The notes under the pieces: model-generated
What the model saw: only the letters and a program-made list of their open reading frames with translations
Databases searched by the model: none
What the model was told of the DNA's origin: nothing
NCBI GenBank assembly: GCA_030377865.1
Contig: JAUCGA010000016.1
Location: 1 to 64,000, forward strand
Source: Anaerolineales bacterium HSG25
Lineage (GTDB): Bacteria; Chloroflexota; Anaerolineae; 4572-78; J111
Direction of reading: 5' to 3'
Length of the DNA stretch: 64,000 nucleotides
Position numbers and translations under genes: made by a program
Part shown: piece after piece, positions 8,850-38,868 of the stretch
How the letters are laid out: the number at the start of each line of letters is the position of its first letter
How positions within the stretch are numbered: the stretch's first letter is position 1

Positions 8850-9962
8850 ATGACAACAGTGACACAACTGTCAGAATCGGAAATATTTCTAATTCCATCC
8901 AAAAGAAGAGAAGCTTGGCCAGAGGAAAACCATAAGAGTTTACCAACTATGTATGATTTGCCAAGCGAGAATAAAGAGGAGGAACCCGGCTTGCCTGACG
9001 AATTCCATAATTTTCAAGCAAATTTACTATCAGATTCTTATGCCTTGCCCAACTATCCACGGGAGCAGATATTCACTGCTGGCGATCTTAATCTATATTT
9101 TGACCCCGACCATCCCAAATGGTATAGACGACCTGATTGGTATGCCGTTGTTGGTGTATCAAGACTGTACCAAGGTTGGGATTTGCGGACGAGCTATGTG
9201 GTTTGGGATGAAGGTGTAGCACCCTACATCGTGATGGAGTTTCTATCACCGAGTACAGAGAGTAGTGATTTAGGACAAAGAGAGGTTCTACCGGGGCGGC
9301 CTCCACCGAAATGGGAGATGTATGAGCAGATATTAAAAGTACCCTATTATATATTGTTTGATAAACGGACTAGCGAACTACAAGTCTTTAAGCTGATTAA
9401 AAATAGGTATAAGAAGATAAGAATAAAAGGTGACAGACTGTGGATGCCAGATTTGGAGGTCGGTATAGGCTTATGGGAAGGTGTCTATCAAGGTATCCAT
9501 CGAAAATGGTTGCGCTGGTATGATGCAAACGGAGAGTGGTTATTAACACGGGCCGAGCAGGCAGAACTACGGGCCAAGAAGGAACGTCGTGCCAAAGAAC
9601 AGGCAAAACTACAGACCGAACATGAACGTCGCGCCAAAGAACAGGCAGAATTTCGGGCCGAACAGGCAAAACTACAGACCGAACATGAACGTCGTGCCAA
9701 AGAACAGGCAGAATTTCGGGCCGAACAGGCAAAACTACAGACCGAACATGAACGTCGTGCCAAAGAACAGGCAAAATTACAGACCGAACATGAACGTCGT
9801 GCCAAAGAACAGGCAGAACTGCGGACCGAACAGGCAGAACTACATGCCCAACAACAACTGATAAATGTAGCCCGCAATCTGTTGTCCACGATGGATGATG
9901 AGGCCATCTGCCAAGTCACGGGCCTAGAGTTGGTTGTTATTCGTGAATTGCGGGGATTATGA
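8850..9962 (+). CDS. Uma2-family nuclease with heptad-repeat coiled-coil tail
   Basis: 370 residues. Residues about 40-235 match the Uma2 (DUF820) PD-(D/E)XK-like fold: PDWYAVVGV, then YIVMEFLSPSTESSD, then YYILFDKRTSELQVFKL, with a C-terminal LWMPDLEVGIGLWEG. From about residue 230 to 330 the chain is a charged coiled coil built of 14- and 21-residue units (ERRAKEQ-AKLQTEH, with or without AEFRAEQ). These are exact multiples of the 7-residue heptad, and the DNA repeats as 42/63-bp units. A final GLELVVIRELRGL resembles the short helix ending many Uma2 proteins. GGAGGT precedes the ATG. Function unknown; Uma2 proteins are numerous in Chloroflexota and cyanobacteria. Confidence 0.87.
   Translation: MTTVTQLSESEIFLIPSKRREAWPEENHKSLPTMYDLPSENKEEEPGLPDEFHNFQANLLSDSYALPNYPREQIFTAGDLNLYFDPDHPKWYRRPDWYAVVGVSRLYQGWDLRTSYVVWDEGVAPYIVMEFLSPSTESSDLGQREVLPGRPPPKWEMYEQILKVPYYILFDKRTSELQVFKLIKNRYKKIRIKGDRLWMPDLEVGIGLWEGVYQGIHRKWLRWYDANGEWLLTRAEQAELRAKKERRAKEQAKLQTEHERRAKEQAEFRAEQAKLQTEHERRAKEQAEFRAEQAKLQTEHERRAKEQAKLQTEHERRAKEQAELRTEQAELHAQQQLINVARNLLSTMDDEAICQVTGLELVVIRELRGL
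9579..9845 (+). repeat. Coding 42/63-bp tandem repeat inside the Uma2 gene
   Basis: Near-identical units starting GAACGTCGTGCCAAAGAACA recur about five times, alternating 42 and 63 bp. They differ by presence of a 21-bp AEFRAEQ block. Unit number can change by slippage without breaking frame or heptad phase. Confidence 0.85.
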
Positions 9963-34200: not shown

Positions 34201-37200
34201 CTATAGTTTTCGTTGAATAACATGGTAGGCATCCAAATCAACACCTACTTTTTTGCGAGTGTACGCATAATCAAGTGGCTCGACCTGAAAAGCCGAGCCA
34301 ACTAGATTCAGTGTTCGCGCGTCGATGTATATTTCGCTTTCAGTGCGACCACCAATCGCCATTTTACTTAATTTGCTTGACATGTTGACCGCCGGGCCAA
34401 CCATCGTACTTTCTGCACCGACGGTTCCGGTGGTGATTTTTCCGGTACTGACCCCAATTCCCATGCCAGTTTGGGCAAACTCTGGACTTTCCTTCTTCCA
34501 CTCATCGCGCAAAGTGATGTAGGCTTGACGCATCTTAAACGAGGCCAGCAAAGCCGACTTGGCCGAGGTCACCTTTTCATCCTCATGCCGTTCTGGAATG
34601 TGCCCGAACACGCCCATCACACTGTCGCCCAAACTTTTGTCCATCGCCCCACCCGCCTGCACGATGATGGTGGACATGCGGAGCAGATACTCATCCAAAA
34701 AGGCGACCATCAACTCTGGGCCGATGGCGTTGGTCAAATAGGTGGAGCCATGAATGTCGCCCATCAGGACTGTCACCTCAGTTTGATGGGTCAACTCGGC
34801 GATATAGCCGGGGTCGTAATAGCGGTCAAGCTCGACTCGGCGACCGATTTGACGGTCATTCAGCAGACGTAGGCTCGACGTTTCGGTCACGCTGTGGGCA
34901 ATCGAGGGGACTTTTTTGACCACTTGGTCGAAATCTTCTCGATTGACCGCCAGCAGGCGAGTCGGCTTGGTGGTGCGGATGGTGGCCGTGCGCGGTACTG
35001 CCCGTAACAGGGCAATCTCGCCAAAAAAGTCTCCAGGGCCAAGGCGGTTAATCACCCCGCTTCGTTGCCCGCCCAAATCGGGAGCTAATACCTCCACTTC
35101 GCCGACCTCTATAATGTAGAAGCTCTGCCCCATCTCGCCCATGTGGAAGACGATTTGACCGGGCCGAAACTCCTCAACCTGAATCCGATTCGCCAATAAA
35201 ACACTCTGCTCCAGAGTCATCTTGCTCAAAATTGGGATACTCTCTAACACCCGTACCACGCCGGTCGAGAGGGCTTTTTCCAGAATATCAAGCTGAGTCT
35301 GCGCCTCCGAGTAGTCCGGCTTGAGGTTAAGCGCGGTATGGAAGGCCGTGCGAGCGCCAACATAGTCCCGCAGAATTTTTTGCGTCGTCCCTAAGTTATA
35401 ATAATGGTGCGGATTAACCGGCTCTAGTTGGGTGGTAGCCTTGAAAATCGTCAGCGCCTCCACATATTTTTCTTGGTCATGATAGGTGATACCGAGTTGA
35501 TTGTAGGCATCGACAAAGTCCGAACGCAGACGAATCGCCTCCTCCAGATGGATGATGGCTCGTTCGTATTGTAACACCTGTCGATAGAGCGAGCCAAGTT
35601 CGTACTGTACCTCTGCCGAGCCGGGATTCTCCTCCGTTGCCAGATGGAGGTAGGTCAGCCCTTCGGGGTAACGTCCTAACAAACGGGAGGCTAATCCGGC
35701 ACTAAATAGGAGGGCGAAATATTGTTGTAGGGGCAGTTGTCGCTCTAACTGTTTTAAGGCCGCAGTTACCTCTTCGCCCGCGTTGGCTAAACATTGTGCC
35801 CCCAACCAGATACGAGCATAATCGTTTTCTGCGCCCAAAATCTTAGAGTATAACAGAGCTTTATCATGGGTAATTCCATACAACAAAACGGTAGTCCCCT
35901 GCCAACGTCGTCGTCCTTCAATCGTGGTCAGATGCGGCTCAAGGTCTAACTCATTGTCCCGAATGGCTAAAGCGGCAAAAAATTCCTGATAGGTGTGATG
36001 GGCAAATTCGAGGGTGCCACGGTCAGCCGAATAGCGAATCAGGCCGCTATGTTTTATCTCCTCATGCACATCCTCACCGGCGATGTCAGCCAACCGTTCT
36101 CGCTCTATCGGCGAAAGTTGGGCACGGTAACTTTGCAGAGCCTTGACAATCATCTCGACCCAACGAGGGCGGGGAAAGGCCCATAACTCCTCCTCCTGCA
36201 TGGCTAATCCTAAGTTAGCGAGAGCCTGTTTCCGTAAGGCCAGCGGTACTTGCGAACTTTGGGGGCCAAAGATTTTCCACCATTCGCTATCGGTGCGCTC
36301 CAACAGATTGTCGATAAACACCTCAAACAGCACCCCCCGATTTTTGGGTAGCGCCTCATCGCTCCGTTTGGCAATTTGGGCGAACATGTAGAGGGCCAAG
36401 GGGGTTTGAGCCAAATCCTCCAACTGTGGGTCACGGTAAATTTCAGCCGCCACCTTGCGTCCCTGTTCGGCCCGTAAATAGTTAACCAGAAATAGCTCGA
36501 TATCCTCGCCCGACAGCCGTTGTAACATGGCCGTGCGGAAGCCATGTAAGGTGGTGTAATCCTCGGCTCGGCAGGACAGGACGACACGGTGTTGTCCATA
36601 TTGACGTAAAAAGCGGCTCACTTCCGGCGAAGTTTCCTCATGGAAAGGCATTTCGTTCAACCCGTCTAACAGAATCAGCAAAGAATGGATGCGGGTATCG
36701 TCGGACTGCTCCCCGTTTAACAGTTTGATGATGTCGGCTTCAGTCTGATAGGCTTCGATTTCGTAGCCTATGAAAATCTCTAGGATGGCCTGTTCGATAG
36801 TTTTGCTGGGTGTGAGGGTATTTAGTTGGATGAAGATGGGCATGATGACCAGTTCGTTGGTTTGGTTCAACAGATGTTGTGACTGTTCAGCCGTATCTAG
36901 TACCAAACGGCGCAGGACAGTGGTTTTTCCGCCCCCTGCCTCGCCTAAAATGACGGTACGACGGTCATTGGCGATGAGGTCGCGCACGTCAATCGGGTTG
37001 TCTTTGAGCAGACTCGCCCCCTCAACCGCAAAACGGCGCAATGGCGACACTTCCGTCGGCGAGGAGAGTCGTCGCTCCAATCGACGGTCGGCGATGTTGG
37101 TCAGAATCTCGAAAACGGCGGGTGCTTTTTGGTTAATCTGATGTAGGGTGCGCGGGGTAACGATAATCACTTTGGTGGCTTTGGTGGTACGGACGGTCGC

Positions 37201-38121
37201 CGTGCGGGGTACATCTTTAATCAGGCCAATTTCACCAAAAAAGTCTCCCTTGCCCAACTTGGTGACGATGATGTCATTGCCCAAAGCATCGGGGACGCGT
37301 ACTTCAACCTCGCCCTTGACGATGATGTAACAGTCGTAACTTTTCTCGCCACGAGTTATGATAGTTTGGTTGGTCGGAATACTGGTCGCGGTGGGAAACA
37401 GCGGGGCGATTTGGCGCAGTTCAGGGTAGGTTAGGGTGTGACGCGGCGCAAACGGGTTGAGGGTTTCTCCGGCGCGGTTGGCTTTGAGTGGAACGTATAA
37501 GTCTTTCCAGACCGCGTAGTCAGGGTCTTCAACAAGACGACGCAAATATCGCTCTAGCGGAGAGAGGGTGCTGTAGACATAGTTGGGGTCACTGGCCGCG
37601 GTTGGGCTGACATAAAGTGGCGCGTTGGAAGGAAACTGGAATAGATGTCCCTTCCAACTCCAAAAATCGGGCGCATTACGAGCCAATTCGGTCACAAATG
37701 AGGCGTTGCCCCAAATCACAATCGGCTGAGCTAGTTGAGTCAACCGATCGCGCAAAAAGTTCAACAGGCGGATGAACTGCCCTCGTTGCTCGGTATCGAA
37801 CTTTTCAATACCATAAACAAAAAAGATGATTGACTTGTATTTTCCGGTTAATTCTAGGTTTTTAAAACGCGAGCCATCTGTGAGTTCGGTGAGAGTTCGA
37901 GCTAAATTAATATCCTTACTGCTCAGTTCAAAGCTAAAGACATAAATTTGGTCGGTTTCTAACTTACGCCGGAAATAGTCAATCAGGCGCGCTCGTAGGT
38001 CTAGGTCGTCACACTCAGCAATCGCCAAGCCCCCCATGTTACTCATACGGAACATGGCTAATAAAGTTCGTATCTCGTCTGGAAAACGAGATGTAAATTC
38101 ATCAATTTCGGGTATCATCAT
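34201..38121 (-). CDS. cNMP-NACHT-TPR-cNMP-class III nucleotide cyclase multidomain protein
   Basis: 1306 residues, no membrane helices. In order: an N-terminal P-loop-like region without a clear Walker A (1-200); cyclic-nucleotide-binding domain 1 (235-345, cassette FFGEIGLIKDVPRTATV); a NACHT/STAND NTPase (386-700, Walker A GEAGGGKTTVL at 393, Walker B LLILLDGLNE near 481); TPR repeats (800-945, for example AEVQYELGSLYRQ); cNMP domain 2 (965-1080, FFGEIALLRAVPRTATI); and a class III cyclase domain (1113-1300). The two metal Asp are present (MGDIHGST D1122, SLGDSVMGVF D1166), as is the Asn in VGPAVNMSSK (N1246). The usual transition-state Arg is Lys1250, so activity may be low or altered. 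It could synthesise and sense cyclic nucleotide on one chain (inference). Confidence 0.88.
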   Translation of the reverse strand: MMIPEIDEFTSRFPDEIRTLLAMFRMSNMGGLAIAECDDLDLRARLIDYFRRKLETDQIYVFSFELSSKDINLARTLTELTDGSRFKNLELTGKYKSIIFFVYGIEKFDTEQRGQFIRLLNFLRDRLTQLAQPIVIWGNASFVTELARNAPDFWSWKGHLFQFPSNAPLYVSPTAASDPNYVYSTLSPLERYLRRLVEDPDYAVWKDLYVPLKANRAGETLNPFAPRHTLTYPELRQIAPLFPTATSIPTNQTIITRGEKSYDCYIIVKGEVEVRVPDALGNDIIVTKLGKGDFFGEIGLIKDVPRTATVRTTKATKVIIVTPRTLHQINQKAPAVFEILTNIADRRLERRLSSPTEVSPLRRFAVEGASLLKDNPIDVRDLIANDRRTVILGEAGGGKTTVLRRLVLDTAEQSQHLLNQTNELVIMPIFIQLNTLTPSKTIEQAILEIFIGYEIEAYQTEADIIKLLNGEQSDDTRIHSLLILLDGLNEMPFHEETSPEVSRFLRQYGQHRVVLSCRAEDYTTLHGFRTAMLQRLSGEDIELFLVNYLRAEQGRKVAAEIYRDPQLEDLAQTPLALYMFAQIAKRSDEALPKNRGVLFEVFIDNLLERTDSEWWKIFGPQSSQVPLALRKQALANLGLAMQEEELWAFPRPRWVEMIVKALQSYRAQLSPIERERLADIAGEDVHEEIKHSGLIRYSADRGTLEFAHHTYQEFFAALAIRDNELDLEPHLTTIEGRRRWQGTTVLLYGITHDKALLYSKILGAENDYARIWLGAQCLANAGEEVTAALKQLERQLPLQQYFALLFSAGLASRLLGRYPEGLTYLHLATEENPGSAEVQYELGSLYRQVLQYERAIIHLEEAIRLRSDFVDAYNQLGITYHDQEKYVEALTIFKATTQLEPVNPHHYYNLGTTQKILRDYVGARTAFHTALNLKPDYSEAQTQLDILEKALSTGVVRVLESIPILSKMTLEQSVLLANRIQVEEFRPGQIVFHMGEMGQSFYIIEVGEVEVLAPDLGGQRSGVINRLGPGDFFGEIALLRAVPRTATIRTTKPTRLLAVNREDFDQVVKKVPSIAHSVTETSSLRLLNDRQIGRRVELDRYYDPGYIAELTHQTEVTVLMGDIHGSTYLTNAIGPELMVAFLDEYLLRMSTIIVQAGGAMDKSLGDSVMGVFGHIPERHEDEKVTSAKSALLASFKMRQAYITLRDEWKKESPEFAQTGMGIGVSTGKITTGTVGAESTMVGPAVNMSSKLSKMAIGGRTESEIYIDARTLNLVGSAFQVEPLDYAYTRKKVGVDLDAYHVIQRKL

Positions 38122-38278
38122 ACATTACCTCATTGTAAGCGGGTAATAAAAAACAGAGTTGCGGTCTAATTCTTGCAATCGGTTCAATTATATCATTCCC
38201 AAGAACGGGAGTCAATCGAACCTTAAAAAAGTTAATTAGGTATTGACAATAATCGGGGGATATGTTATTATCCCTCTC

Positions 38279-38351
38279 GAGCCGTTAGCTCAGTCGGTAG
38301 AGCAATTGCCTTTTAAGCAATGGGTCGTGGGTTCGAGCCCCACACGGCTCA
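38279..38351 (+). tRNA. tRNA-Lys (anticodon TTT)
   Basis: A 73-nt cloverleaf. Acceptor stem GAGCCGT/ACGGCTC, D arm GCTCAGTCGGTAGAGC, anticodon stem ATTGC/GCAAT with loop CTTTTAA (anticodon TTT), T arm GTGGG-TTCGAGC-CCCAC, discriminator A. The CCA end is not encoded. It lies alone between the cyclase gene and a small protein gene. Confidence 0.97.
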
Positions 38352-38360
38352 CTTTAAAGT

Positions 38361-38398
38361 GGGTGTGTTGTAGAGTTATAGGCAACACGCCTGTTTTT
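38361..38398 (+). terminator. Probable terminator of the tRNA gene
   Basis: GGTGTGTTG and CAACACGCC form an imperfect stem around an 11-nt loop, closed by GTTTTTAT. It lies 9 bp past the tRNA end. Confidence 0.6.
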
Positions 38399-38405
38399 AT
38401 ATCTA

Positions 38406-38504
38406 TTGGAATTAAATAAGTTGCGTGTTCCAGAGTAGTTCAATCTTTAAGATTGAACTACTCTCATAACCAACATGTACAGGTTTATTTGTGCTTATTC
38501 CATA
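38406..38504. repeat. Family E element with TTCAATC hairpin core
   Basis: TTGGAATTAAATAAGTTGCG and TTTGTGCTTATTCCATAG ends around GTTCAATCTTTAAGATTGAAC. Diverged from the copies at 2786 and 51080. Confidence 0.7.
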
Positions 38505-38541
38505 GTAACAATGATCTTTTAAAACTAAAGGACGTGATGTT

Positions 38542-38868
38542 ATGTATTCTCGGTGTGAAATTCTATTTCCTCATTCTCGGGTGGGTGGATTAAAAAAGTT
38601 AAAGGGTGACGAGTGGCGTAAATTAACAGAGCGAATCGCGTTATTGCCGGAAATACACGAAGATTCCTTGTCGTTCTCGCACATGATGATAAAGTTGTGT
38701 GACTGCCTAAACTGTGATTTAGGAAGCTATAAAGCGGCACTTGGATGTTCAGCCTGCTCTCAGCGAACCATTAACGCCTTACGAGATTCAGATCCGCAGT
38801 TGAAAAAACGATTTGAAAAATCACGAAAAGAAGTTCGATTGTACCTTAATGAAACCGAACTTCCCTAA
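38542..38868 (+). CDS. Small Cys-rich protein of unknown function
   Basis: 108 residues. I do not recognise the family. A central LCDCLNCDLGSYKAALGCSA then CSQ holds five cysteines that could bind zinc or an iron-sulfur cluster. The C-terminus is basic and helical (LKKRFEKSRKEVRLYL). AAGGAC lies 10 bp before the ATG, and a good terminator follows at 38901, so it looks like a real single-gene unit. Confidence 0.72.
   Translation: MYSRCEILFPHSRVGGLKKLKGDEWRKLTERIALLPEIHEDSLSFSHMMIKLCDCLNCDLGSYKAALGCSACSQRTINALRDSDPQLKKRFEKSRKEVRLYLNETELP

Follow-up and report, generated by a model that had tools for sequence, protein, structure and literature searches.

We studied a stretch of 64,000 nucleotides from Anaerolineales bacterium HSG25 (contig JAUCGA010000016.1, positions 1 to 64,000; hereafter the window), and in particular a gene on its minus strand that encodes a protein with two cyclic-nucleotide-binding domains (CNB1 and CNB2), a NACHT nucleoside triphosphatase (NTPase), and a C-terminal class III cyclase domain (CHD). 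We tentatively read this protein as a STAND-type NTPase regulator with a cyclic-nucleotide loop of its own, vertically inherited and not an anti-phage effector. The features of the locus are as follows.

34201..38121, minus strand: whole gene, 1306 amino acid residues, with an AAA+-like domain (apparently inactive), CNB1, NACHT, TPR, CNB2, and CHD
37468..38121, minus strand: residues 1-218, a three-layer alpha/beta domain resembling AAA+ (ORC/Sir3/Rif2/DnaC-like), Walker A absent; predicted to dock on the upstream ATPase in relatives
37069..37383, minus strand: CNB1, residues 247-351, cassette GDFFGEIG...PRTAT
36472..36963, minus strand: NACHT NTPase core, residues 387-550, with K399, D486, and R518
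35287..35712, minus strand: TPR repeats, residues 804-945
34915..35175, minus strand: CNB2 core, residues 983-1069, with E1035 and R1044
34204..34785, minus strand: CHD, residues 1113-1306, with D1122, K1162, D1166, T1239, N1246, and K1250
38122..38541, strand unassigned: site of the partner ATPase gene in relatives; here tRNA-Lys (38279-38352, plus strand) alone, with no remnant

A Pfam search of the 1306-residue protein bore out the anatomy proposed in a preliminary description of this DNA. The cNMP_binding profile matched twice (6.9e-40), NACHT (PF05729) matched with 27.1 bits, barely over the cut-off of 26.7 (4.4e-6), several TPR models matched after the NACHT domain, and Guanylate_cyc (PF00211) matched with 38.6 bits (1.1e-9). 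The catalytic residues cited in that description (D1122, D1166, N1246, and K1250) are all at the positions given. The NACHT domain has the Walker A motif GEAGGGKTT and the Walker B motif LLILLDGLNE; thus, the Walker A Lys, the Walker B Asp, the profile match, and the downstream repeats are all present, and by these features the protein classes as a NACHT/STAND protein, for which oligomerisation is only predicted. K399, D486, and R518 are invariant wherever sequenced among the homologues of the order, and also in the homologue from a genome outside the class (G311).

Both CNBs contain the phosphate-binding cassette (FFGEIG...PRTAT in CNB1 and FFGEIA...PRTAT in CNB2), including its Glu and Arg. 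These residues (E297 and R306 in CNB1, E1035 and R1044 in CNB2) show the same invariance in the order and are also kept in G311. The best structural matches of CNB2 include PKA RIalpha and PKG CNB-B. The two CNBs share 42% identity across 99 residues, a level compatible with their origin by duplication within the protein. CNB1 is present in the order and in G311 and is missing from the homologues of the families f11, f35, and f51. Profile searches of the draft genome (about 80% complete) gave 21 cNMP-binding and 15 cyclase matches, and, as judged by coordinates and lengths of the open reading frames (ORFs), the window protein alone carries both kinds of domain.

Homologues were found in 21 of the 25 genomes of the order (all 12 of family f1, all six of f3, and three of the seven of f2), with one strong match in each. 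They share 46-93% identity over most or all of their length, except where shortened at contig ends, and the conservation of the protein is far beyond chance. In the sampled class, 25 of 298 genomes contain a homologue, and G311 is one more outside the class. The closest named relative is Anaerolineales bacterium HSG24, and the named relatives are Anaerolineae/Chloroflexi genomes. Because the homologue tree agrees with the taxonomy and each genome has one strong match, the gene is vertically inherited and single-copy; its product would be a chromosomal regulator of one Chloroflexota order. The most divergent orthologue (locus L018, G021:C152) is encoded at a site without the partner ATPase, and its AAA+-like domain has lost the APDFWSWK motif.

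The best fold matches of the CHD are CyaB of P. aeruginosa and CyaC of S. platensis. The class III fold and both metal-binding Asp residues are present, and K1162 and T1239 complete the Lys/Thr pair that selects purine, so that the site is of a class IIIb-like kind. The metal Asp residues (D1122 and D1166) and the transition-state Asn are invariant in the order, wherever sequenced. Of the two transition-state residues, Asn is kept and Arg is replaced. The unusual catalytic site remarked on in the preliminary description stands to this extent: all 16 readable members of the order have Lys for Arg, whereas Asn and Arg are both present in all seven further CHDs that were aligned from the window genome and keep both metal Asp residues. 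When the window CHD is aligned with the genome's other CHDs, it shows a gap of four residues before the Asn/Lys motif. The protein thus appears to be a class III cyclase homologue that lacks one catalytic residue. The domain probably makes cyclic nucleotides.

Outside the order, the site varies further. The CHD-bearing homologues of f11 and f35 keep the metal Asp residues and the Arg, but Asn is replaced by Ile or Val and Lys by Gln. In G168 (f51), both metal Asp residues are gone (to Cys and Glu), Leu replaces Asn, and the Arg position keeps Arg. In genus g88 (f35), the CHD is absent altogether, with no remnant nearby; a search downstream of the short g88 homologues gave no CHD in a shifted frame, and the homologue of the third g88 genome (G114) has 972 residues and ends without a CHD. 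No family member with a readable CHD has both transition-state residues together.

For the selective constraint on the domains, we compared the window genome with a genome of the same genus. By a counting method on these two sequences, from the two closest genomes (other genome pairs contrast less extremely), the ratio of nonsynonymous to synonymous substitution rates (dN/dS) was 0.006 for the CHD, 0.010 for CNB2, 0.032 for TPR, 0.037 for NACHT, and 0.098 for the AAA+-like domain. Since the value of the CHD is so far below that of the N-terminal domain, the CHD does not appear to be decaying in the window lineage. In addition, the cassette Arg of CNB2 is gone exactly in those lineages where the CHD lacks its metal ligands or is itself absent, being replaced by His in G168 and by Tyr in g88 (represented by G133 and G151), in two independent events on the tree. 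Because CNB2 and the CHD are under the tightest constraint and the CNB2 Arg was lost together with the CHD site in two lineages, a functional coupling of the receptor and the cyclase is suggested, although this is not proof. The coupling of the cyclase-like domain with cNMP sensors in one chain, as put forward in the preliminary description, gains support from the same observations.

The main rival reading, which we consider possible but somewhat doubtful, is that the CHD is a pseudo-cyclase that binds ATP and metal and dimerises as a sensor or switch, while the CNBs read cNMP made by other cyclases. The lack of any readable homologue with both transition-state residues (the Asn is paired with Lys or His in the order and G311, and the Arg with Ile, Val, or Leu in f11, f35, and f51) is in its favour, as are the loss of the CHD in g88 with the rest of the protein retained and the presence in the genome of at least seven other CHDs with complete sites, which could supply the cNMP. 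However, no domains of the protein are under tighter constraint than the CHD and CNB2, both metal Asp residues and the Asn do not vary in the order, and Lys could in principle still neutralise the transition-state phosphate. Moreover, a CNB2 that reads a shared pool need not lose its Arg when the CHD is lost, yet this was seen twice.

Residues 1-218 had no meaningful match in Pfam or PADLOC. An AlphaFold2 model on 26 homologues gave a three-layer alpha/beta fold (mean predicted local distance difference test score 79), for which the best Foldseek matches in the PDB were the AAA+ domains of ORC, Sir3, Rif2, IstB, and DnaC (E value about 2e-4, template-modelling score about 0.4). The P-loop motif GxxxxGK is absent in all 26 aligned homologues. 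Residues 1-218 therefore look like an inactive, degenerate AAA+ domain in this model, and not an effector; as an effector, the region was rejected on the lack of a meaningful Pfam or PADLOC match and on its AAA+-like fold.

In 20 of the 30 homologue-bearing genomes, an ATPase of about 440 residues is encoded directly upstream on the same strand. These 20 genomes span seven families (f1, f2, f3, f11, f35, f51, and f70). The ATPase has the conserved motifs GHxGCGKSTE and IDDLDK and matches KAP_NTPase and AAA_22. We infer that this AAA/KAP-like ATPase is the natural partner of residues 1-218, which would dock on it. The preliminary description had suggested that the N-terminal 200 residues may be the output since no effector gene is adjacent. 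The absence of such a gene holds in the window genome, but most orthologous loci have the conserved ATPase gene directly upstream; and the output role is not supported, given the degenerate AAA+ look of the region and its pairing with the ATPase gene elsewhere.

The ATPase was not found in ten homologue-bearing genomes, including the window genome. Because the tree needs three changes for these ten genomes, we read the ATPase as having been lost three times, once in a lineage that includes the window. The order of tRNA-Lys, a small ORF, and a GHMP kinase (identified by reading of the ORF, not by a profile match) is the same in the window as in G011, G006, and G010, which have the ATPase; because of this matching order, the gene is cleanly absent from a conserved site. 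A remnant of it was looked for in the window, and none was found. Beside the tRNA-Lys lies an ORF of 108 residues (38542-38868) that is kept in seven related loci, including the window, and has no Pfam match.

Absence of the partner goes with a rate of evolution of the AAA+-like domain, relative to NACHT, that is about 2.7 times faster: the summed ratio of AAA+-like to NACHT branches is 1.87 without the partner and 0.69 with it (Mann-Whitney p 0.001, on branches that are not fully independent). In G024, which also lacks the partner ATPase, the AAA+-like domain is missing.

Distant relatives of the ATPase were matched in 63 of 298 Anaerolineae genomes. Among 20 sampled loci of c1-like ATPases, 15 carry an ORF directly downstream that resembles an inactive AAA+ protein, and the downstream proteins scanned consist mostly of the AAA+-like domain and TPRs. 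When the search was started in reverse, from the AAA+-like domain, an ATPase-like ORF was found upstream in six of eight loci; one of these six is a fragment, and one belongs to the full homologue pair in G311. Because pairs of ATPase and AAA+-like TPR proteins recur in Anaerolineae, the window protein appears to be an elaborated member of a two-gene theme. Literature searches, whose coverage missed most subscription journals, gave nothing specific on the architecture of the window protein and no description of the ATPase pair of Chloroflexota.

The loci L141-L167 contain this recurring pair, a KAP/AAA-like ATPase of about 440 residues and an inactive AAA+-like TPR protein, in frames that often overlap or abut. 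In the case of L161 (G000:C128, 3822-6151), in the same genome as the window, a second inactive AAA+-like TPR protein of 672 residues follows an ORF of 107 residues; this ORF seems to retain both ends of the partner ATPase and nothing in between, which would correspond to an internal deletion of the ATPase core.

The recurring pair also allows the reading that the protein is a generic scaffold of an AAA ATPase/inactive-AAA TPR pair, which might serve to remodel proteins or assemble complexes, and to which the cNMP domains were later added as allosteric parts without a circuit of their own. The 15 of 20 loci fit this reading, and the scanned downstream proteins mostly have TPRs without NACHT, CNB, or CHD. 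Nevertheless, we consider it improbable: because the window lineage has lost the ATPase, its AAA+-like part is the fastest evolving, and CNB2 and the CHD are nearly frozen, the cNMP part is presumably no mere add-on here.

By reading of the ORFs, the neighbours of the gene in the window are housekeeping genes, and none of ten neighbours matched PADLOC; a defence island was rejected on this result. No plasmid homologue was found, and phage records gave only two short matches at the level of the CHD, to an annotated adenylate cyclase; a mobile element was rejected on these results. A separate CNB effector gene (TIR or membrane) was neither a neighbour in the window nor recurrent in the compared loci. 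The defence link drawn in the preliminary description is not supported by these results and the vertical inheritance: the defence-island or mobile context and the patchy inheritance of an anti-phage gene were not seen, and what was found instead is a vertical tree with housekeeping neighbours and no plasmid homologue. It is thus very improbable that the protein is an anti-phage sentinel in which NACHT senses a phage product and the cyclase makes an alarm cNMP that leads to growth arrest: although NACHT proteins and cNMP signals both serve bacterial immunity, and the protein resembles the antiphage NACHT protein EruA weakly in NCBIfam (47.6 bits against a cut-off of 1000) and matches the PADLOC models of the Pycsar cyclase and effector through the shared CNB and CHD domains, it is vertical in one order with one copy per genome, it has no effector domain, and its sensor-cyclase end evolves very slowly, which is not an arms-race pattern. 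Elsewhere in the window, an ORF at 8850-9962 ends in tandem coiled-coil repeats (EQAKLQTEHERRAK...), which are the source of long antisense ORFs.

We therefore return to the regulator with its own cyclic-nucleotide loop, which remains our tentative preference. In this mechanism, an input received by the TPRs together with the inactive AAA+ domain would set the ATP/ADP state of NACHT, and oligomerisation would pair two CHDs. Class III cyclases need a homodimer. The paired CHDs might then slowly convert ATP to cyclic AMP, with ATP suggested as the substrate because of K1162 and T1239. CNB1 and CNB2 would bind the protein's own cNMP or a shared cellular pool and thereby reset the switch or latch it. 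The ancestral form would have had two genes, with the inactive AAA+ domain docking on the active ATPase encoded just upstream, and the window lineage would have dropped the ATPase and kept the half controlled by cNMP.

Several observations weigh against this mechanism. The assignment of residues 1-218 to AAA+ is based on a model of medium confidence with modest fold scores, and when this domain was compared with the partner ATPase by profile, no significant homology emerged. The transition-state Arg is Lys in 16 of 16 readable members of the order and His in G311; in addition, f2 has K1162 changed to Arg and T1239 to Ala, and f3 has T1239 changed to Ala. Because of these changes, the nucleotide pocket appears less fixed than in an ordinary adenylyl cyclase. 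The joint loss of the CNB2 Arg and the CHD site counts only two independent events.

A fuller version of the regulator reading, possible but held with less confidence, is a complete loop in one chain (a cyclase, two receptors, and an NTPase switch) built on a Chloroflexota module, widespread yet apparently undescribed, of an active AAA/KAP-like ATPase and an inactive AAA+-TPR protein with interchangeable C-terminal parts, in which the Lys-for-Arg site may be tuned for slow, self-limiting signalling. If true, it would be a natural second-messenger circuit in a single protein, open to dissection with point mutants. Our comparison of partners exposes a recurring Chloroflexota ATPase pair whose subunits can be matched by co-loss, and the Lys that invariably stands in for Arg in the order could be used to tell slow enzymes directly from nucleotide-binding switches among such class III domains.

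Among known systems, the type IIIb class III cyclases CyaB of Pseudomonas aeruginosa and CyaC of Spirulina platensis have in common with the window CHD the fold, both metal Asp residues, the Lys/Thr pair, and the Asn, whereas the window CHD has Lys in place of the transition-state Arg. Soluble adenylyl cyclase (ADCY10) and the actinobacterial cyclase-ATPase-TPR proteins also fuse a class III cyclase to a STAND-type NTPase and repeats; in contrast, the cyclase of the window protein is C-terminal, two CNBs lie in the chain, and there is an extra inactive AAA+-like domain. The regulatory CNBs of PKA and PKG and that of CRP share the fold and the cassette Glu and Arg, and two CNBs per chain are found as in PKA-R, but those of the window protein lie on either side of a NACHT-TPR core and are joined to a cyclase, not to a kinase, channel, or helix-turn-helix domain. 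The likeness to Pycsar consists of the PADLOC matches through CNB and CHD. By context, the window protein is not a Pycsar system: its sensor and cyclase form one chain, an effector encoded by a gene of its own is lacking, as is any TIR or membrane effector, and nothing hints at mobility. The iSTAND and related NTP-dependent conflict systems (Kaur et al. 2020, PMC7159879) place an inactive NTPase domain beside an active ATPase, together with cNMP cyclase and cNMP-binding modules, and have a MoxR-vWA pair as their defining feature. In contrast, the conserved neighbour in relatives of the window protein is a KAP/AAA_22-like ATPase, and no MoxR or vWA gene was recognised among the window ORFs that were read, although no MoxR or vWA profile search of the neighbours was made. 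The window protein is a variant of the STAND/cyclase proteins that builds on an ATPase pair widespread in Chloroflexota.

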